Positions 29,463 through 64,000 of a stretch of DNA of 64,000 nucleotides are shown in pieces (positions within the stretch are counted from its first letter, which is position 1; the number at the start of each line of letters is the position of its first letter). The notes below the pieces were generated by a model. That model saw only the letters and a program-made list of their open reading frames with translations, had not been told where the DNA came from and ran no database searches. Source of the stretch: Elusimicrobia bacterium GWB2_63_22 (GTDB lineage: Bacteria; Elusimicrobiota; Elusimicrobia; Elusimicrobiales; UBA9959); the NCBI GenBank assembly GCA_001799735.1, contig MGUA01000027.1, positions 85,937 through 149,936 of the forward strand. The letters are read 5' to 3'. A program made the translations under genes and the position numbers.

Positions 29463-29583
29463 TATGTAAGCCCCGAAGCTATGTTAGTGCCGGCTAAAAA
29501 GCTATGCTTATCAGCCGGCCGCTTTTAACAGCCTTATATAATTTTATATTATATCATTCTAGCAGGGCGCTGTAAGGCCAGAT

Positions 29584-29674
29584 GGAAGGATGGCCGAGTG
29601 GTTTAAGGCGCCGGTCTTGAAAACCGGTGTACGGTTAATCCGTACCGTGGGTTCGAATCCCACTCCTTCCGCCA
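29584..29674 (+). tRNA. tRNA-Ser (anticodon TGA), CCA encoded
   Basis: GGAAGGATGGCCGAGTGGTTTAAGGCGCCGGTCTTGAAAACCGGTGTACGGTTAATCCGTACCGTGGGTTCGAATCCCACTCCTTCCGCCA; anticodon loop CTTGAAA, long variable arm. Confidence 0.97.
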
Positions 29675-31156
29675 AATTTTCTTCTCAGAAAATTTGGCAC
29701 AATTTAAATCCGCTAGTCCGGCTAGCTCCCGCAGTTTTTCCGCCGGAAGATTAAATTTTAATTTTATTTTCTTCCCGCCTAAAAGGAAGTTCGAACCGAT
29801 TTTTTTCAATATTTGCAGGTTTTCCTCCGGATTTCCCGCAACCGCGGACTCTCCGGCGTGAACTGCGGTCTTGTAGAAACCTATAAGCGGTTCGAACCGC
29901 TTACTCCCCTCCCGCTCAAAAGCTGCGAGTTTCATTTCATTTTCCTTTTTTTCTTCCAGGCATGAACGCTTCTTTTGGGCGTATTCATCCTGCGTTATCA
30001 ACCCGCTAAGTATCATGTCCAAAAGAGCGTTCATGCTCTTCGTAAGGAAATCTATTTTATCTCGCAGATTTTGTGCGGCTTCTTCCCCGGCCTGGGCCGC
30101 GCTTAGTTTCTCCTTATTGATATTGTGAAGAGCATCCGCGGCCAGGGCCGGGGGTAAGGAAACTCCTTTTAATAAGTCGCGTATCTGTTTTTCCACTTCA
30201 TCTTCTCGCACATAAGGCTCCGCGCAAGGTACCTTGCGCTTGGTGCAATGAAGGTAGTTACGTCCCTTCTGCGTTTCGGTGGTGATGAAGCACCCGCAAT
30301 TGGCGCAACGGAAAGCGCCTCGGTAAACATAGGGCTTCAAGGTCTTTGTCTTGGGCTTGCTTTTGTTTTTAAGCATCTCCTGGCACTTATCAAAGAGCGC
30401 CTTGGAGATTATGGACTTATGCTTGGCCTCATAGACCTCGCCATAGTAGCGCATAACCCCATAGTAGATAGGGTTCCGGAGCATATAGTGGCAGTTTGAT
30501 ACGGATAGAGGCTTATGAAGCTTGCGCCCGCGAAGCCCGGACCTGTTTACCATGTCCCGGATTTCAAGGATGGCATAATTCCCGGTAGCGTAAAGCTCAA
30601 AAGCCTTTTTAATAATGGGAGCGCGCTCTTTATCAACGTGTATCGTGTGGTTGCTTAGGTTATTTAAGTAGCCCATCGGCGCCCAGGAGGGCCAGATACC
30701 ATTGCGTAGCTTTTGGCGTATGCCGCGCTTTACGTTTTCCGAGAGGTTGTCCACGTAATACTTGGACTGGCCGAAGGCGATAGACAGCATGAACTTACCC
30801 TGTGGCGTAGGGTCAAACCAGAACGTGGGAAACTTCAGTTCCAAAACCTTGCCTGTGTCCACCAAATAGACCAGTTTTCCGCCGTCAATACTATTCCTCG
30901 CGAGGCGGTCAGGGTGCCAGGCCACTATGCCGTGGGCCGCGCCCTGCTCAAGGCCAGCGACCATCTCGTTGAATATGGCGCGGCCCGGCTCCTTGGCGGT
31001 TTTGCTTTCGATGAACTCGCGGGCTATGGCGAGACCGTTCTTTTTAGCGTAGTCGCGGAGTTCAGCGAGCTGCGCCTCTATGGAAAGGATCTGCCGGTCC
31101 GGCTCGTCCGTGGACTTGCGCGCGTAAAGGAAATACCGCATATTAGACTTCTCCAT
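29603..31156 (-). CDS. large serine recombinase (resolvase + recombinase + zinc ribbon + coiled coil); ORF reads antisense through tRNA-Ser
   Basis: MRYFLYARKSTDEPDRQILSIEAQ...FRCANCGCFITTETQKGRNYLHCTKRKVPC; the last ~25 residues WRKEWDSNPRYGLTVHRFSRPAP are antisense tRNA. Confidence 0.9.
   Translation of the reverse strand: MEKSNMRYFLYARKSTDEPDRQILSIEAQLAELRDYAKKNGLAIAREFIESKTAKEPGRAIFNEMVAGLEQGAAHGIVAWHPDRLARNSIDGGKLVYLVDTGKVLELKFPTFWFDPTPQGKFMLSIAFGQSKYYVDNLSENVKRGIRQKLRNGIWPSWAPMGYLNNLSNHTIHVDKERAPIIKKAFELYATGNYAILEIRDMVNRSGLRGRKLHKPLSVSNCHYMLRNPIYYGVMRYYGEVYEAKHKSIISKALFDKCQEMLKNKSKPKTKTLKPYVYRGAFRCANCGCFITTETQKGRNYLHCTKRKVPCAEPYVREDEVEKQIRDLLKGVSLPPALAADALHNINKEKLSAAQAGEEAAQNLRDKIDFLTKSMNALLDMILSGLITQDEYAQKKRSCLEEKKENEMKLAAFEREGSKRFEPLIGFYKTAVHAGESAVAGNPEENLQILKKIGSNFLLGGKKIKLKFNLPAEKLRELAGLADLNCAKFSEKKIWRKEWDSNPRYGLTVHRFSRPAP
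29669..29792. repeat. unit A, inverted repeat left arm (3' end of recombinase CDS plus last 6 nt of tRNA)
   Basis: reverse complement of 31348-31471, 123/124 identical by eye. Confidence 0.95.
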
Positions 31157-31347
31157 ACCTTGCCTCCCCTTGCTCTTAAGGCCGGTTTTGCCCAGCAGGG
31201 CTGAATCGGACTTAAGTGCTATTCTTCAACTCTGTGCCGCTGGTAAGGCCGGCCAGGCGCACCAGCGCTGGGCCGGCCGCACCTGCGGCCATAAGGATGA
31301 TAAATCGGTTCGGTAACCGTCTTCGGTTACCCGGTACGCCAGCACCG
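31157..31347 (+). ncRNA. candidate structured RNA/DNA region of unit A (three hairpins); strand uncertain
   Basis: hairpins 31175-31216 (CTTAAG/CTTAAG with apical GCCC-AGCA-GGGC), 31236-31289 (GCCGC/GCGGC enclosing GGCCGGCCAG/CTGGGCCGGCC), 31312-31347 (GGTAACCG-TCTT-CGGTTACC then CGGT-ACGCCAGC-ACCG); same architecture at 63717-63897. Confidence 0.5.
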
Positions 31348-31471
31348 GAACTTCCTTTCAGGCGGGAAGAAAATAAAATTAAAATTTAATCTTCCGGCGG
31401 AAAAACTGCGGGAGCTAGCCGGACTAGCGGATTTAAATTGTGCCAAATTTTCTGAGAAGAAAATTTGGCGG
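31348..31471. repeat. unit A, inverted repeat right arm (mirror of recombinase 3' end)
   Basis: see left arm 29669-29792. Confidence 0.95.
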
Positions 31472-31798
31472 GCCTTTCAGGATGAAGTTATAACCTACTT
31501 TGCGCAACATCCTGAGGCAACTTTATAAATACCGCCAGCAAGCCGTGTAGCGGCGGTATGGGGATCTTATCCGCGAGATGCCGCACGGTCGGCCACGCCG
31601 CGCGGCCGCCCATGCTTCGCCGCTAGGAAGTGGGTGCGCAGGGCTCGGCACTACGCGCCTTCGCACCTGCTCCGAAGGTGTTCTGCATCTTATAAACACC
31701 TCCTCTGCGCGTCCGGCCGGCCCCCAACAGGGCCTTGGCACGGCCGCTCCCGTCCGCCTTCGGCGTCCGTACACCGCTGAAATTATTTCCCGCGCGCA
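31466..31798 (-). repeat. 333-bp repeat R, copy 1
   Basis: reverse complement of 61597-61929 with a single mismatch by eye. Confidence 0.95.
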
Positions 31799-40172: not shown

Positions 40173-41507
40173 TCATACTGCCTGCTTGTCCTCAAAAGCC
40201 TCGCGCAAAACTGACTGCATGAGCATTTCGGCTTGGTTTTTGCGTTCGGCTACTTGGGCTTCAAGTTCGCGGATTATGTCCATGGTTTTATTTACACAAT
40301 CAACTATGCGGCGGTGCTCAGACAAGGGTGGCAGAGGGAACAAGAGGGCGCCAATGATATCAAGGTTTATGTTTTTTTGTGCTGTCGCGGGGGCAAACTT
40401 TATTATTTCAGTTTGCATTGCTTCAAGATAATATTTAACAAGCCACGGCGTAGACCCCTCTGAGAGCGAAGTAAAGCCCACGACACTATCTGGAAAACAG
40501 GCATCTATATCCAAAAAGCCTGTTTCGGCGATATTTGCGGCAATGGTTATACACAATGTGCCTTTGGGCCAAAGCTTGCTTTGAGCCAAGCCGAAATCAT
40601 TATATTGCTTATCAAATCCCGATATTTTAAACTCAGTCTTTTTTGATGACGACACATCGCCGGTTTGAATAAACGGATAAGTGCCGTTATTAAACAACTT
40701 TGAGTCATTCCGGGGCCTGTGCTTTGACTTCCCCCGGCCGAACAGCCCCAATGCACCAAGCCGGCACCAGGTCCAGCCTTCGGGCAAGGGGAATGGTTTT
40801 TCAGCTTCGGTGATTGGGGGCAGGGGTTTTTCATTTTTTAGTTCGCCCTGCTGGATTAGGCGGGATTTTTCGGATTTTATTTTTTCCAGGAGTTTTGAGG
40901 CGTGATTTTCGCCGGTGATTAGGGCGGGGTTCTTTTTGCGCCAATCGGCGGTTAGCTTGCCTTCAATGGCGTCCTGCAGAATTTGCAGACGAAGTTGTTT
41001 TAATAATTCCAGTTGCTTGTCGGTCTCAATTAAAAGTTCAGCATGTTCGCCGGACATGGAATCCAGTTTGGACAGGGCCTTTTTCTGTTCCGTTAGGGGC
41101 GGCACCGGAATATTAATATCCGAGATAGCCGACACCGACAAAGAAACATTGGCCGCGCCTCTCATTAAAGGGACAAGAACACGGTCTTTGTTCATTTGCA
41201 GATAGGTGTGCAGGTAACGCGCATCTAATATTTTTTTATCTTTGGGGATTAAGGCGGCTAAAATAGTACCAAGGGCGAATTTTCCCTCCTGAAAATGAAC
41301 ATAGTTCAGGGTCTTTTTACCGTGGCCGGTGGAAGACACCAGCGGAATACATACTGCTGGTGTGTCGAACTGATAAGTTTGCGCGCTTCTTCTTTCCGCG
41401 CCGGTGGCCACCAGCGGATATTCACCGGGTGTAGCGGCGGCCAGGCCGGTAACGCCCTTTTCGACAGAGCAGATATCTCCGATTCTTAGCCAGCGCGGCT
41501 CAGCCAT
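40173..41507 (-). CDS. hsdS: type I restriction-modification specificity subunit
   Basis: two target-recognition halves with conserved linkers: IPVPPLTEQKKAL... and FPLPPLSEHRRIV; GWTWCRLG. Confidence 0.92.
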   Translation of the reverse strand: MAEPRWLRIGDICSVEKGVTGLAAATPGEYPLVATGAERRSAQTYQFDTPAVCIPLVSSTGHGKKTLNYVHFQEGKFALGTILAALIPKDKKILDARYLHTYLQMNKDRVLVPLMRGAANVSLSVSAISDINIPVPPLTEQKKALSKLDSMSGEHAELLIETDKQLELLKQLRLQILQDAIEGKLTADWRKKNPALITGENHASKLLEKIKSEKSRLIQQGELKNEKPLPPITEAEKPFPLPEGWTWCRLGALGLFGRGKSKHRPRNDSKLFNNGTYPFIQTGDVSSSKKTEFKISGFDKQYNDFGLAQSKLWPKGTLCITIAANIAETGFLDIDACFPDSVVGFTSLSEGSTPWLVKYYLEAMQTEIIKFAPATAQKNINLDIIGALLFPLPPLSEHRRIVDCVNKTMDIIRELEAQVAERKNQAEMLMQSVLREAFEDKQAV

Positions 41508-42933
41508 TGTTTATTTCCTTCTTAAGCGTTTCTAGTAGTTCGTCACTTTTGCGGAAAGAATCGTGCAGCATGTTCAGGAGCTGGGCGCTGGTGTAGGTTT
41601 TTTCGGGCTCGGGGATGTGCGGGTTTTTTATGTCCAGGTTGTAGCCGTTCTTTATTATGGCGGCTATGGGGACCTTCCAGGCCTGATCGGTTTCTTTGCG
41701 CTTCTTCCACCATTTTTTTAGGTTGTCGAATTCGGATTTCTGGATGGGCTTGGTTTTGCTGTAGGCTTTAACGCCTTCGGGGAGTTTGTGCTCGTAGTAC
41801 CAGATTTCGCGGGTGGGCTTGCCTTTATCGAAGAAAAGCAGGTTGGTGGCCACGCTGGCGTAGGGCTGAAAAACGGAATTGGGCAGCCGCACAACAGTGT
41901 GCAGGTTGCAGTTTTCAAGAAAATGCTGGCGGATGCGCTGCTTTACGCCGTCGCCGGTAAGGGAACCGTCGGGCAGAACAATGCCGGCGCGGCCGCCCTC
42001 GCGCAGGTAGCGTATCATTACAAGCAGGAACAGGTCGGCGCTTTCGGTGGTGCGGAAGGCCTGCGGATAATTTGTTTCCACGCCCTGTTTGACGGAAGCG
42101 CCAAAGGGCGGATTGGCCAGAATAACGTCCACTTTGTCTTTTTGCCCTATGGTGGTGTATTCCCTGTTCAGGCTGTCTATATAATCCACATTCGGCACTT
42201 CAATGTCGTGCAGGATAAGATTTGTGACGCAGAGCATGAACGGCAGCGGCTTTAATTCCATGCCGTGTATATCTTTCTCAAGCTGGCGCAGGTTCTTGAC
42301 GCCTTTAATATCCTGCCTGCGGATATTTTCAATGGCGCAGGTAAGAAAGCCGCCGGTGCCGCAGGCCGGGTCAAGAACCTTTTCCCCAAGGCGCGGATTT
42401 ATGGTTTCCGTTATAAATTCGGTTATGGCGCGCGGGGTGTAAAATTCGCCGTATTTGCCGGAGCTTTGGAGGTCTTTCAGGATGGTTTCGTAAATGTCGC
42501 CGAAGACGTGCCTGTCTTCCGAACTATTGAAGTCTATCTCGTTAAGTTTATTCAGGACCTGGCGGATAACGGTGCCGTCCTTCATGTAATTATTGGTGCC
42601 GTCGAAGATCTCGTGGACGATAAGCGCCCGCTTATTTCCCGTGCTGATATCCAGGTTTTTAAGGGCGGGGATCAGCTTTGCGTCCACAAATTCTTTAAGC
42701 TCATCGCCGGTGATGCCCTCCGGGTTGCCGGCCCAATTGCGCCACTGGAATTTTGACGGGATAACCGAGGCGTATTTGTCGTTCAGGAGTTCCAGCTCCT
42801 TGTCTTTGTCGTCCAGGATCTTCAGGCTTATCATCCAGCCAAGCTGCTCTATGCGCTGGGCGTCGCCGGACACGCCCTGATCACGCCACATTATATTCTG
42901 GAGGGATTTAATTACGTTGCCGATATCTTTCAT
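41500..42933 (-). CDS. hsdM: type I restriction-modification DNA methyltransferase
   Basis: GEFYTPRAITEFITETINPRLGEKVLDPACGTGGFL; NPPFGA. Confidence 0.95.
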   Translation of the reverse strand: MKDIGNVIKSLQNIMWRDQGVSGDAQRIEQLGWMISLKILDDKDKELELLNDKYASVIPSKFQWRNWAGNPEGITGDELKEFVDAKLIPALKNLDISTGNKRALIVHEIFDGTNNYMKDGTVIRQVLNKLNEIDFNSSEDRHVFGDIYETILKDLQSSGKYGEFYTPRAITEFITETINPRLGEKVLDPACGTGGFLTCAIENIRRQDIKGVKNLRQLEKDIHGMELKPLPFMLCVTNLILHDIEVPNVDYIDSLNREYTTIGQKDKVDVILANPPFGASVKQGVETNYPQAFRTTESADLFLLVMIRYLREGGRAGIVLPDGSLTGDGVKQRIRQHFLENCNLHTVVRLPNSVFQPYASVATNLLFFDKGKPTREIWYYEHKLPEGVKAYSKTKPIQKSEFDNLKKWWKKRKETDQAWKVPIAAIIKNGYNLDIKNPHIPEPEKTYTSAQLLNMLHDSFRKSDELLETLKKEINNG

Positions 42934-45326
42934 GATTGTGCCCTATAGTAGATGTGTGATTCAAGTTCTTTAATAGCGCTGAGGTAGCCGGTTTTGCCGC
43001 CGAAAAGATTTACCAGTTCCTTGGGGGTGCCCATGTGTTTGAACGGGTCTATGCGCAGAACCGCCATATCCTCGATATTGTCTATGCCGTCGTCAGCATA
43101 CTTGTCCAGAAGCGCGTCCAGGATCTTGCGGGCCTGCTCGCAGTATTTTGTGAAATAGTTCTGCTTACGGACATGTTCCGCGCGCTCCCGGCGTGTGAGC
43201 GGCGGCATATCCCAGGCTATGTGGCAGACAAGGTCGAAAACATCCAGGTCTTTTTTCACCTCTTCTTTAAGGTTTGCCAACTGGATGCCGTGCTCTTCCA
43301 GTTCCTCTATCAAGGCTTTCTTTTTGTCGGCGGAGTTCCAGCGCGTCAGGAATTCGTCTATGCTGCGGAATTCTTTCTCTATGCCGCGCTTTGTGTAATC
43401 TTTAAAGCTTTCGGTTATTATTTTGCCGTTGCCGTCCAGATACTGCTTGCGCTCGTGCAGAACGGAGACATCAATACCCGAGACGAATACCTTCGGCTTG
43501 GGATCGGCGCTTATCTCCCCGCCGCCTATAATGGGCGGCGGGAAAGATTCGGTCTGCGGAAAATCAACTATTTCGCCCGTGGCGGGATCAACTATCGGCC
43601 CGGTTTCGGGGTTGATATCGCCGTTATCTATAGGTTTTTCAGGCGGAATCACTTTTATCATTACCGGGTCGCCGTCGAATTTGGCGTCCGCAAAAAGGTC
43701 GGTGACGTTGCGGAAATCCATGATGGTGAAGAAAGTCTTGCCGTATTCCTCGTTTATGCGGGTGCCGCGCCCGATTATCTGCTTAAACTCGGTCATGGAC
43801 TTTATGTTGGAGTCCAGCACAATAAGCTTGCAGGTCTGCGCGTCAATGCCGGTGGTCATCAGCTTTGAGGTTACGGCTATAACGGGATATCTTTCCTCGG
43901 GGTTGATAAAATTATCCAGCTCGCGCTTGCCTATGATCTCGTCGCCGGTGATGCGCATTATATATTTATTATTTTCTCCGGCCAGATCGGGATTTTCGTT
44001 GACAAGCGCCTGGCGCATACGCTCGGCGTGTTCTATATCAACGCAAAAAACGATGGTTTTATCGAACCTGTTGGTTTGCTTCAGGAATTCCGTTATCCTT
44101 CTGGCCACAAGCCGGGTGCGCTCATCAATAACAAGATTCCGGTCAAAATCTTTGGCGTTGTAAATTCTGTCTTCCACTTCCTGCCCGTCTTTATCTGTTT
44201 TTCCAAGGTCGGGGCGCCAGCCTTCAAGGTCCACATTTATGCCCACCCGGATAACTTTATACGGGGCCAAAAAGCCGTCTTCAATACCCTGCCGTAGCGA
44301 GTATGTGTAAATGGGCTGGCCGAAATACTGAATGTTGGAAATCTCATCGGTTTCCCTGGGCGTGGCTGTTAAGCCGATATGGGTGGCGGAGTTAAAGTAA
44401 GTGAGTATGTCACGCCAGGCGCTGTCCGCATCCGCGCTGCCGCGGTGGCACTCGTCTACCACTACAAGGTCAAAGAAATCCCGGCTGAACTCTCTATAGG
44501 CATCCTTATCTTCGTTATAGTTTGTCAGGCCCTGATAAAGAGCGAGGTAAATTTCATAGGCTTTATCCACATTATGATTGCGGATAGTGGTCATCTTGCC
44601 CTTGAAGTGCTTGAAGTCCCCGCGCTTGGTCTGGTCTATAAGGGCATTGCGGTCCGTAAGGAACAGGATTCTCTTTTTTGTGCCGCTTTTCCAGAGGCGG
44701 TGTATTATCTGAAAGGCCGCATAGGTTTTGCCGGTGCCGGTGGCCATAACTATAAGCACGCGGGGCTGGCCTTTGGCTATAGCCTCTACGGTGCGGTTTA
44801 TGGCTATCTGCTGGTAGTAACGGGGGGCGCGGCCGGAACCGTCGAAATGATAAGCGTGGGCGGCTATTGTTTCCTGCTGCGGGCCGGAGATGCCTTTGTA
44901 TTTTTTGTAGATCTCCCAGAGGGCGGCGGGGGACGGGAAGGCGTCCAGGTGGATGGTGGATTCTGTTGTGGCTGAACTGCCGGAGCGGTCATGAACCACA
45001 AACCCGTCGCCATTGGAACTGATGGCCACGGGAATGTCCAGGATCTGGGCGTAATCCAGCGCCTGCTGTATTCCGGAACGGATGGAATGATTATTGTCTT
45101 TGGCTTCTATAACCGCAACGGGGATATTGGGTTTTTGGTAAAGGATGAAATCGGCGCGTTTGCGCTCGCCGCGCCTGGTTTCCTGGCCTTTTACGAAGAT
45201 GCGGCCATCTGTGAAGAAAACTTCTTCGCGGATCTGGCGGTCGCTGTCCCAGCCGGCTTTAACTATGGCGGGCAGTATGAACTTAGTGCAGATGTCGCGT
45301 TCGGAAAGGGCTTTCTTTGAGGTCAT
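42930..45326 (-). CDS. hsdR: type I restriction endonuclease, R subunit
   Basis: RADFILYQKPNIPVAVIEAKDN; VLIVMATGTGKTYAAFQIIHRLW; DECHRGS; TGID...IIGRGTRI. Confidence 0.95.
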   Translation of the reverse strand: MTSKKALSERDICTKFILPAIVKAGWDSDRQIREEVFFTDGRIFVKGQETRRGERKRADFILYQKPNIPVAVIEAKDNNHSIRSGIQQALDYAQILDIPVAISSNGDGFVVHDRSGSSATTESTIHLDAFPSPAALWEIYKKYKGISGPQQETIAAHAYHFDGSGRAPRYYQQIAINRTVEAIAKGQPRVLIVMATGTGKTYAAFQIIHRLWKSGTKKRILFLTDRNALIDQTKRGDFKHFKGKMTTIRNHNVDKAYEIYLALYQGLTNYNEDKDAYREFSRDFFDLVVVDECHRGSADADSAWRDILTYFNSATHIGLTATPRETDEISNIQYFGQPIYTYSLRQGIEDGFLAPYKVIRVGINVDLEGWRPDLGKTDKDGQEVEDRIYNAKDFDRNLVIDERTRLVARRITEFLKQTNRFDKTIVFCVDIEHAERMRQALVNENPDLAGENNKYIMRITGDEIIGKRELDNFINPEERYPVIAVTSKLMTTGIDAQTCKLIVLDSNIKSMTEFKQIIGRGTRINEEYGKTFFTIMDFRNVTDLFADAKFDGDPVMIKVIPPEKPIDNGDINPETGPIVDPATGEIVDFPQTESFPPPIIGGGEISADPKPKVFVSGIDVSVLHERKQYLDGNGKIITESFKDYTKRGIEKEFRSIDEFLTRWNSADKKKALIEELEEHGIQLANLKEEVKKDLDVFDLVCHIAWDMPPLTRRERAEHVRKQNYFTKYCEQARKILDALLDKYADDGIDNIEDMAVLRIDPFKHMGTPKELVNLFGGKTGYLSAIKELESHIYYRAQS

Positions 45327-61596: not shown

Positions 61597-61929
61597 TGCG
61601 CGCGGGAAATAATTTCTGCGGTGTACGGACGCCGAAGGCGGACGGGAGCGGCCGTGCCAAGGCCCTGTTGGGGGCCGGCCGGACGCGCAGAGGAGGTGTT
61701 TATAAGATGCAGAACACCTTCGGAGCAGGTGCGAAGGCGCGTAGTGCCGAGCCCTGCGCACCCACTTCCTAGCGGCGAAGCATGGGCGGCCGCGCGGCGT
61801 GGCCGACCGTGCGGCATCTCGCGGATAAGATCCCCATACCGCCGCTACACGGCTTGCTGGCGGTATTTATAAAGTTGCCTCAGGATGTTGCGCAAAGTAG
61901 GTTATAACTTCATCCTGAAAGGCCCGCCA
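61597..61929 (+). repeat. 333-bp repeat R, copy 2 (inverted relative to copy 1)
   Basis: 332/333 identity by eye to the reverse complement of 31466-31798. Confidence 0.95.
61707..61772 (+). CDS. candidate 21-codon sORF inside repeat R
   Basis: AGGAGGTGTTTATAAG-ATG; MQNTFGAGAKARSAEPCAPTS*; identical in copy 1 (31623-31688, minus). Confidence 0.25.
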   Translation: MQNTFGAGAKARSAEPCAPTS

Positions 61930-62050
61930 GATCTTTGGATTTCATAAGCGCGCGGCGCTTCAGCCGCAGCAAGCCGCGCGGACCTCTTAAGGGGGGTTCA
62001 GCGAGCGGGCCGCAGAAGGCGGCAGAGCGAGCGACGATGAAACGGGGGGC

Positions 62051-63715
62051 TTAGCCCCCCTTGTAGAGCGCCCGGCCGACAAAGGCCGGGGCGAAGCCTC
62101 CGAGCAGCAGCGAGGAGCGCGTTTTTAGACGGAGAGGTGTGTGAGCGGTTGAAACAGCAGGTCTCGAAAACCTGTAAGGGTCAAACCTTCGAGGGTTCGA
62201 ATCCCTCCCTCTCCGAACTTTTTGACTTTTTAAAAATTCTGCCGAAAAAATTATATTTTCCGCGCGCGCAGAATTAAAATTAAGTAGTAATTCCCAATGG
62301 TTTTTGTATTCGACGGAAAGCCGCCGCCTGCCTATACGGAAGTTCGAACCGATCTTTTTCAACTTTTCCCTGTTTTCCTCCGCTTTTCCGCTCTCCGCTA
62401 ATTCCCCGACGTGAACCGCCTCCCTGTAAAAGTTTATCTCAGGTTCGAACCGATTGACACTCTGCCGTGCAAAAGCTGCTAATTTATCCTGTATTTCCTT
62501 TTTGTCGTTGATAATTACAAACTTCTTTTGGACATATTCATCCTGCGTCAACTTCCCGCTTAGCACCATGTCCAAAAGAAGATTTAAATTACAGGTAAGG
62601 GAATCTATTTTAAATCGCAGCTTTTGGACGGTATCTCCCACGGCCTGGGCCGACGCGGCTCGTTCCTTCTCCGCCATAAGGATGAGCCCGGCGGCCAGGG
62701 CCGGGGGTAAGGAAACAGATTTTAGTTCACCTTTTATCTGGGCCGTAATCAGTTCCTCCCTTACATAAGGCTCGGCGCAAGGCCCTTTCCGCTTTGTACA
62801 CCTCAAATAATTATGATTTTTTTGGGTTTCGGTCGTTATGAAGCAACCGCATTCCTTACAGTGGAACACCCCCCGGTAGGTGAAAGCTTTCAATTTAGGC
62901 CCCTTGGGCTTGCTCTTACGCGTCATTACAGCCTGGCAACGGTCGAATAGGTCTTTCGTTATGATCGGCTCGTGCTTGCCCTCGTAGATCTCGCCCTTAT
63001 ACCTTATAACTCCGTAATAGACCGGGTTCTTGAGCATATACTGGTAGTTGGAGGTTGAAAGGGCGGTATGCCGCCCTTTCAGGCCGACGCCGTTCATTAT
63101 GCGCCGGACCTCGGCCAGCGGGTAGTCGCCAGTAGAGTAAAGCTCAAAGGTCTTCCGGATAAAGACCGCCCGGTCTTTATCCGGAAATATTGTGCGGGTG
63201 TTCTTGTCATTTATATAACCGAGCGGGGCGCAACAAGGCCAAATACCATTGCGAAGTTTTTGCCGAAAACCGCGCTTTATATTTTCCGAAAGGTTGTCTA
63301 TGTAGTATTTGGACTGGCCGAAAGCTATTGAAAGCATGAACTTACCCTGTGGCGTTGGGTCAAACCAAAAGGTGGGGAACTTAAGGGCAGTTATCTTGCC
63401 GGTGTCCACCAAATATATAAGCCTGCCTCCGTCGATACTGTTGCGGCAAAGCCTGTCCGGGTGCCAAGCGATAATGCCTTGCGCCTTGCCGTCCTCGATA
63501 GAGGCTATCATGTCATTGAAGATTTCGCGGCCTGGCTCTTTAGCGGTTTTGCTCTCAATAAACTCTTTTACGATTATGAGGTTCTCTTTCTTGGCGTATT
63601 CACGAAGTTCAGCGAGCTGCCCTTCTATTGAGAGGATTTGCCTGTCAGGTTCGTCCGTTGATTTTCTGGCATAAAGAAAATACCGCATATCCTGGTTTTG
63701 CATAAGACCTCCCAT
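62051..63715 (-). CDS. large serine recombinase, paralog of 29603-31156; ORF reads antisense through tRNA-Ser(CGA)
   Basis: MRYFLYARKSTDEPDRQILSIEGQ...FHCKECGCFITTETQKNHNYLRCTKRKGPC; C-terminal GRDSNPRRFDPYRFSRPAV is antisense tRNA. Real stop uncertain. Confidence 0.9.
   Translation of the reverse strand: MGGLMQNQDMRYFLYARKSTDEPDRQILSIEGQLAELREYAKKENLIIVKEFIESKTAKEPGREIFNDMIASIEDGKAQGIIAWHPDRLCRNSIDGGRLIYLVDTGKITALKFPTFWFDPTPQGKFMLSIAFGQSKYYIDNLSENIKRGFRQKLRNGIWPCCAPLGYINDKNTRTIFPDKDRAVFIRKTFELYSTGDYPLAEVRRIMNGVGLKGRHTALSTSNYQYMLKNPVYYGVIRYKGEIYEGKHEPIITKDLFDRCQAVMTRKSKPKGPKLKAFTYRGVFHCKECGCFITTETQKNHNYLRCTKRKGPCAEPYVREELITAQIKGELKSVSLPPALAAGLILMAEKERAASAQAVGDTVQKLRFKIDSLTCNLNLLLDMVLSGKLTQDEYVQKKFVIINDKKEIQDKLAAFARQSVNRFEPEINFYREAVHVGELAESGKAEENREKLKKIGSNFRIGRRRLSVEYKNHWELLLNFNSARAENIIFSAEFLKSQKVRRGRDSNPRRFDPYRFSRPAVSTAHTPLRLKTRSSLLLGGFAPAFVGRALYKGG
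62131..62215 (+). tRNA. tRNA-Ser (anticodon CGA), CCA not encoded
   Basis: GGAGAGGTGTGTGAGCGGTTGAAACAGCAGGTCTCGAAAACCTGTAAGGGTCAAACCTTCGAGGGTTCGAATCCCTCCCTCTCCG; anticodon loop CTCGAAA. Confidence 0.95.
62243..62345. repeat. unit B, inverted repeat left arm (visible part)
   Basis: reverse complement of 63898-64000 with 3 mismatches by eye. Confidence 0.93.
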
Positions 63716-63897: not shown

Positions 63898-64000
63898 AAA
63901 CTTCCGTAGGGGCAGGCGGCGGCTTTCCGTCGAATACAAAAACCATTGGGAATTACTACTTAATTTTAATTCTGCGCGCGCGGAAAATATAATTTTTTCG
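63898..64000. repeat. unit B, inverted repeat right arm, cut by window edge
   Basis: see 62243-62345. Confidence 0.93.

Follow-up and report, generated by a model that had tools for sequence, protein, structure and literature searches.

The question raised by this locus was why the gene of a large serine recombinase, lodged against a tRNA gene, should be accompanied by an inverted copy of its own 3' end. In the window, i.e. the whole stretch of 64,000 nucleotides of Elusimicrobia bacterium GWB2_63_22 that was analysed here, positions 29669-29792 and 31348-31471 formed an inverted repeat of 124 nt (99% complementary, with 1555 nt between the arms), which contained the 3' end of the recombinase gene and the terminus of tRNA-Ser(TGA). 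Such a repeat is far beyond chance, because two further copies, one elsewhere in the window and one on a different contig, each displayed an inverted repeat of their own. The recombinase ORF (29603-31156, minus strand) passed through the first arm into the tRNA in antisense. Its product displayed the Resolvase N-terminal, Recombinase and zinc-ribbon domains of large serine integrases (PF00239, PF07508 and PF13408, all three above Pfam cut-offs), and its structural neighbours were solved serine integrases. The locus is interpreted here as an integrative genomic island of a large and apparently undescribed family, in which the serine integrase carries attP in its own 3' end and a mirrored spare end would let an inversion restore it; to this reading as a whole we give about an even chance.

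The integration target was tRNA-Ser(TGA) (29584-29674, plus strand), recognised by ARAGORN, by Rfam (RF00005) and from empty sites. Its last six nucleotides, CCGCCA (29669-29674), constituted the core of attL. The original prediction had considered a tRNA-targeting transposon of ~1.8 kb with terminal inverted repeats, and had overlooked that the right arm (arm2) runs on into a longer repeat which marks the far end of an island, designated island A: arm2 ended at TGGCGG (31466-31471) and continued into a 339-nt sequence (31460-31798) that was found again, inverted and 99% identical, at 61597-61935. This far copy of the P half-site also stopped at a core CCGCCA (61924-61929) and was followed by GATCTTTGG, with tRNA-Ser(CGA) 200 bp further on. 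attR denotes 61597-61929 (minus strand, P half-site plus core), with chromosomal B' beginning at 61930. An empty site was reconstructed by joining 29500-29674 to 61930-62216. It was uninterrupted in five congeners (76-89% identity), as the original prediction had suggested looking for in relatives, and in G015 it was exact around the junction (CTCCTTCCGCCA joined to GATCTTTGGATTT); the integrated island is therefore 29675-61929 (32,255 bp), arranged as arm1, integrase, arm2/attP copy, cargo and attR. With the core at both of its limits, an inverted P half-site at both ends of the cargo and an uninterrupted empty site in relatives, it is a tRNA-integrated genomic island. The empty site and the distant attR ruled out an insertion sequence or a 1.8-kb transposon with terminal inverted repeats: both arms lie within the element, which is bounded by attL and attR, and the mobile unit is the 32.3-kb island.

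The cargo of island A (31857-61229) included genes for Fic, a HEAT-repeat protein, an AlbA/Schlafen protein and type I restriction-modification (40173-45326), as well as MFS, NUDIX, PHP, GrpB, ASCH, GNAT and beta-lactamase-fold proteins. No conjugation, phage or replication genes were recognised among the scanned cargo proteins of island A, which covered part of the ORFs. Likewise, the scanned cargo proteins of island A and of the Patescibacteria elements presented below (part of the ORFs) displayed neither the relaxase and conjugation genes of an ICE or IME nor a Rep domain.

Arm1 (29669-29792, minus strand) corresponds to the P' half of attL and codes for the ~40 native codons that immediately precede the core; arm2 (31348-31471, plus strand), the inverted copy of the integrase 3' end, corresponds to the P' half of a retained, inverted attP. 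Together with the adjoining P half-site and flank (31472-31798, plus strand), of which the copy at 61597-61935 is the 99% identical inverted counterpart and which includes GCCTTTCAGG, arm2 makes up a complete attP, here called att2. Read outward in the integrase frame, arm1 gave KIW-RKEWDSNPRYGL, which is antisense tRNA, and arm2 gave KIW-RAFQDEVITYFAQHPEATL and a stop, which is the native integrase C-terminus. The native codons past the core (31466-31528, plus strand) were W R A F Q D E V I T Y F A Q H P E A T L stop. Apart from the inverted copy, attR was the sole place where they occurred, and they were conserved across phyla. attP straddled the last ~20 integrase codons, and comparison of the junctions shows that integration swaps the native C-terminal helix (ending in WRAFQDEVITYFAQHPEATL and a stop) for antisense tRNA codons, while the last ~17 native codons end up at the far end. 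attL then consists of integrase body plus tRNA, and attR of native tail codons plus chromosome. A second attP, intact and equipped with the native 3' codons, lies inverted directly upstream of the integrase, so that the gene is bracketed by mirrored attPs. A 28-nt palindrome, GCCAAATTTTCT-TCTC-AGAAAATTTGGC, was also observed at the tips of both arms (29671-29698 and 31442-31469), beginning in the tRNA 3' end.

Element B, the second unit in the window, was targeted to tRNA-Ser(CGA) (62130-62216, plus strand), i.e. the gene located 200 bp beyond attR of island A. Its integrase (62051-63715, minus strand) was 64% identical to that of island A, and its inverted repeat (102 nt, 98%) was formed by an arm1 at 62243-62344 (minus strand) and an arm2 at 63899-64000 (plus strand), cut off by the contig end. 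The third copy, on contig C5, was found at tRNA-Asp with a 90% identical integrase and a 132-nt inverted repeat. More P-type repeats, 71-86% identical and mostly near contig ends, were observed on contigs C22, C23, C37, C41, C43 and C1 of the same genome (G000) and are probably ends of other islands. On C1, near 80.8 kb and beside the tmRNA gene, L061/L016 displayed a 24-bp palindrome (CCACCATTTAAACGGCCGGTCTTC-GCAA-) leading directly into the P-type tail W W G L L V D V R R F F D E H P E G I E and a stop, the arrangement that a deletion of the integrase from between its arms would leave.

Scanning species genomes uncovered 80 loci, distributed over Elusimicrobiota, many Patescibacteria groups, Omnitrophota and Verrucomicrobia (Verrucomicrobiota), and further whole-genome searches brought the total to 217 distinct integrases; these loci were found with family queries and are related by descent, so that counts drawn from them are not independent. 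The fully visible set comprised 102 tRNA-facing integrases with at least 400 nt upstream and at least 250 nt downstream. The original prediction had proposed to inspect the flanks of homologous recombinases for an inverted copy of the CDS 3' end, and had allowed that relatives might generally lack the mirrored tail. The opposite was found: the repeat was present in 88 of these 102 integrases, from Elusimicrobiota, Patescibacteria, Omnitrophota and Verrucomicrobiota. The inverted copy of the 3' end thus exists, forms part of the element and recurs in relatives. An assembly artefact, also envisaged at the outset, was excluded by 163 repeat-bearing copies from independent assemblies, with unrelated arm sequences and on contigs of up to 0.72 Mb. 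Metagenome assemblies do tend to break at these repeats, and upstream of the integrase many contigs run out within a few hundred bases; the mirrored repeats beside integrases therefore explain why so many contigs in these genomes break there.

Targets included at least 15 tRNA identities as well as tmRNA. In a tree of 118 integrases, repeat-positive copies clustered, and so did the repeat-negative ones, including an outlying clade of five, several of which were beside tRNA genes; the repeat is therefore a trait of the family and not of every integrase at a tRNA. In Patescibacteria, 11 elements could be delimited, with attL, att2 and attR sharing a core of 3-6 bp. In the survey, attR was located inside the fetched flank of 13 loci, some of them also among these 11. 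The cargo of these delimited elements was 1.2-9 kb and often included restriction-modification genes. One Patescibacteria island (L176:4168-7983) harbored a radical-SAM protein whose neighbouring ORFs look, on visual inspection, like the other [FeFe]-hydrogenase maturation genes (HydG, HydF), and another island (L147:2649-9333) a reverse transcriptase and a restriction-modification pair. Phage and plasmid matches displayed at most 33% identity in the best-ranked hits, and one IMG/VR contig was matched besides; with matches this distant, a phage or plasmid origin was rejected.

The orientation of the integrases was strongly biased. Repeat-bearing copies pointed toward the tRNA in 140 cases and away from it in four (p = 1.6e-36 against 50:50, shared ancestry ignored), namely L214, L180, L181 and L257. 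In L214 the flipped ORF ended in a restored native tail (WRCFLDEVRTFFDENPEN and a stop; NWRCFLDEVRTFFDENPEN and a stop), and this locus is decisive for what flipping does to the integrase end. Flipped L180 had a 94% identical counterpart, L179, whose integrase is in the usual orientation toward the same tRNA-Gln isoacceptor. The opposite orientations came from different genomes and not from one population, and the flipped copies were few, on contigs ending near the integrase. An Elusimicrobiota copy, L063/L026, also displayed the native tail followed by P, on a contig starting in the leader, where a flipped and a circular form are indistinguishable. The integrase segment is flanked by inverted crossover sites, as in DNA inversion systems, and self-inversion, one of the roles put forward in the original prediction, is plausible, since flipped isomers exist. 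The two att copies are near identical over arm and P, and a symmetric reaction in an excised circle predicts ~50:50. Despite these near-identical copies the bias is extreme, and the away state would therefore be unstable, avoided or converted back. This bias is the main argument that orientation has a consequence.

The inverted attP could instead be only a second integration site, or a standing attP for another tRNA gene, with the orientation of the integrase having no regulatory meaning; this explanation is unlikely. Three loci were flanked by two different tRNA genes, and in L225 and L282 each side of the integrase directly joined a different tRNA gene, the outcome predicted for recombination of att2 with the attB of a second tRNA, so that att2 can serve as attP. 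Integration via att2 would also yield flipped copies. Equal use of near-identical attPs nevertheless predicts a balanced ratio, contrary to that observed, and a standing attP would produce harmful chromosome inversions. In a further locus, L113:9595-11552, the 5' half was of Ser-type, beside tRNA-Ser(TGA), while the 3' arm was 100% identical to a Glu-type element at tRNA-Glu, suggesting either a hybrid of Ser-type and Glu-type copies or a misassembly.

The farthest-reaching form of this interpretation, which we put somewhat below an even chance, is a mobility switch: integration would truncate the integrase, a flip across the mirrored attPs would restore its end, and a locked element could thereby free itself without an outside integrase, in a family spanning Elusimicrobiota, Patescibacteria, Omnitrophota and Verrucomicrobiota. 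The anatomy is firm; from it we infer the function. Integration would remove the native C-terminal helix, of which att2 would hold the spare. Recombination between the mirrored arms would then flip the integrase, which would run away from the tRNA and regain the helix; lying downstream of the tRNA and no longer antisense to it, the gene could come under new transcription. An integrase facing the tRNA, as is usual, would represent the locked form and a flipped one a short-lived mobile form, and the mirrored attP could also react with a second tRNA gene. It counts against the switch that the tail helix, which may matter for integrase activity, was predicted with low confidence (residues 491-507 in L214; pLDDT ~36-55 in the last blocks) in a structure model with an overall LSR fold. 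For known serine integrases an attP of ~50 bp is sufficient, and attL does not react with attP; A118 integrase left attL and attP unrecombined, and recombined attP with attP at less than 5% (PMC3556126). Because attL and attP do not react in known systems, the enzyme may not drive the inversion, which argues against the switch, and RecA-type recombination in arms of at least 75 nt would be the likelier route.

Upstream of the integrase, a structured leader RNA (31157-31300, minus strand) was conserved in Elusimicrobiota copies. Covariation supported it: 38 pairs were predicted, 11 of them with compensatory changes on both sides. No Rfam family matched the leader, the match to RF04351 reflecting only the tRNA antisense. 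The leader possibly acts in translational control. RNA-guided target choice was not supported, as the leaders at Ser(GGA) and Asp hardly differed (L022 vs L023). The inner edge of arm2 was occupied by a twin hairpin (31304-31350, minus strand), which closed a GUUC...GAAC three-way junction; it sits inside the GTTC/GAAC of arm2, where arm1 has a bare GTTCGAAC. It was also found in L003, L029, L045, L185, L214 and L239, including some Patescibacteria, with stems that varied between copies and a structure that was kept. This structured leader, together with the position of arm2, which in several loci ended 12-34 nt before the start of the integrase match and would place the promoter in arm2 or beyond, is what could be expected if att2 were the promoter or operator of the integrase, which would bind the upstream attP and repress itself, arm identity being kept since both copies must bind Int. 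This explanation is improbable: it requires neither identity over an arm of ~120 nt plus a P flank of 70-330 nt nor native tail codons in frame, and a simple promoter scan uncovered nothing convincing.

The arms themselves had a median length of 123 nt (39-199) and a median within-locus identity of ~98.5%, whereas between loci with integrases 40-60% identical the arms were just 48-50% identical, which is near random; in this comparison the two arms of one locus shared 98.6%. What is maintained between arms is thus identity itself and not sequence, and this difference argues for recombination between the arms. Of 114 loci, 96 had the native tail motif beyond arm2, whereas past the core on the tRNA side it was absent throughout (0/114). 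Variation in the tail codons was mostly at third positions, and the arm2 reading frame was open in 101 of 113 cases, stops occurring in the other 12. All genus copies with enough flank had an arm2 leading outward to homologous sequence, mostly the same coding tail, although a few were frameshifted in the inner part of arm2; in Patescibacteria and Omnitrophota the tail took forms such as LLNKIRTFFQENPDAEF followed by a stop. Gene conversion could produce arm identity incidentally, with no selection for inversion, and this counts against the switch. Carried further, the repeat would be the functionless relic of a single inverted duplication in an ancestor, its two nearby copies homogenised by gene conversion. 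Gene conversion is required in any case, given an arm identity far above that between loci, and the repeat was lost in some clade members. A passive relic is nonetheless quite improbable, as the arrangement persists across integrases down to ~45% identity and across several phyla with the tail frame intact. Least credible, with hardly any weight, is an action in the excised form, either as an inversion-driven double rolling circle or as a single-stranded panhandle attP: the architecture does resemble the mirrored recombinase sites in the inverted repeats of the yeast 2-micron plasmid (PMC3147054), but the scanned cargo held no replication or transfer gene and no excised form was seen.

Several known systems share part of this organisation. 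Serine-integrase phages and islands (A118, Bxb1, phiC31, SPbeta YokA) display the same order of Resolvase, Recombinase, zinc ribbon and coiled coil, a short core, and attL and attR. To our knowledge, attP occurs just once in these systems, adjacent to the gene or elsewhere outside it, and has no inverted counterpart. In Hin/Gin/Min, invertons and the Rin shufflon, a recombinase likewise lies beside inverted crossover sites and inversion swaps a protein C-terminus; here, in contrast, the integrase itself would be the inverted segment and the integration sites the crossover sites, the inversion being deduced between genomes. In phages with integration-dependent immunity, the repressor gene has attP close to its 3' end (PMC6109161), and C-terminal residues of a control protein are similarly swapped on integration, but it is the repressor that is altered and not the integrase, and there is no mirrored spare copy. 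The yeast 2-micron plasmid, with its FLP-type double rolling circle (PMC3147054), also has recombinase sites (FRT) in two inverted repeats; it differs in being an autonomous plasmid with a tyrosine recombinase, while no replication gene was recognised in the island cargo.

A parallel in gene fate concerns the archaeal 'suicidal' integrases of SSV-type, in which att lies inside the gene, the target is a tRNA and integration damages the gene (PMC8371274). They are tyrosine recombinases split into two inactive halves, were described in 2021 as exclusive to Archaea, and the exit route of their elements from the chromosome is an open question (PMC8371274). Common to both are an att within the integrase coding sequence, a tRNA target and a gene altered on integration. 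The present integrase differs: it is bacterial and not archaeal, a serine and not a tyrosine recombinase, and instead of being split into two large parts it loses ~17 residues and has a mirrored spare end in cis. No description of an integrase with a mirrored attP was found in open-licence full texts, an absence that is not proof of novelty.

Self-disrupting integrases, previously described as a peculiarity of archaeal tyrosine recombinases, would have a counterpart among bacterial serine recombinases, one that brings its own spare end. The family occurs widely in lineages from which few mobile elements are known, and restriction-modification genes are often part of its cargo. It offers a directly testable model of integrase self-control, together with a large number of new serine integrases that target tRNA genes and whose att sites are mapped.
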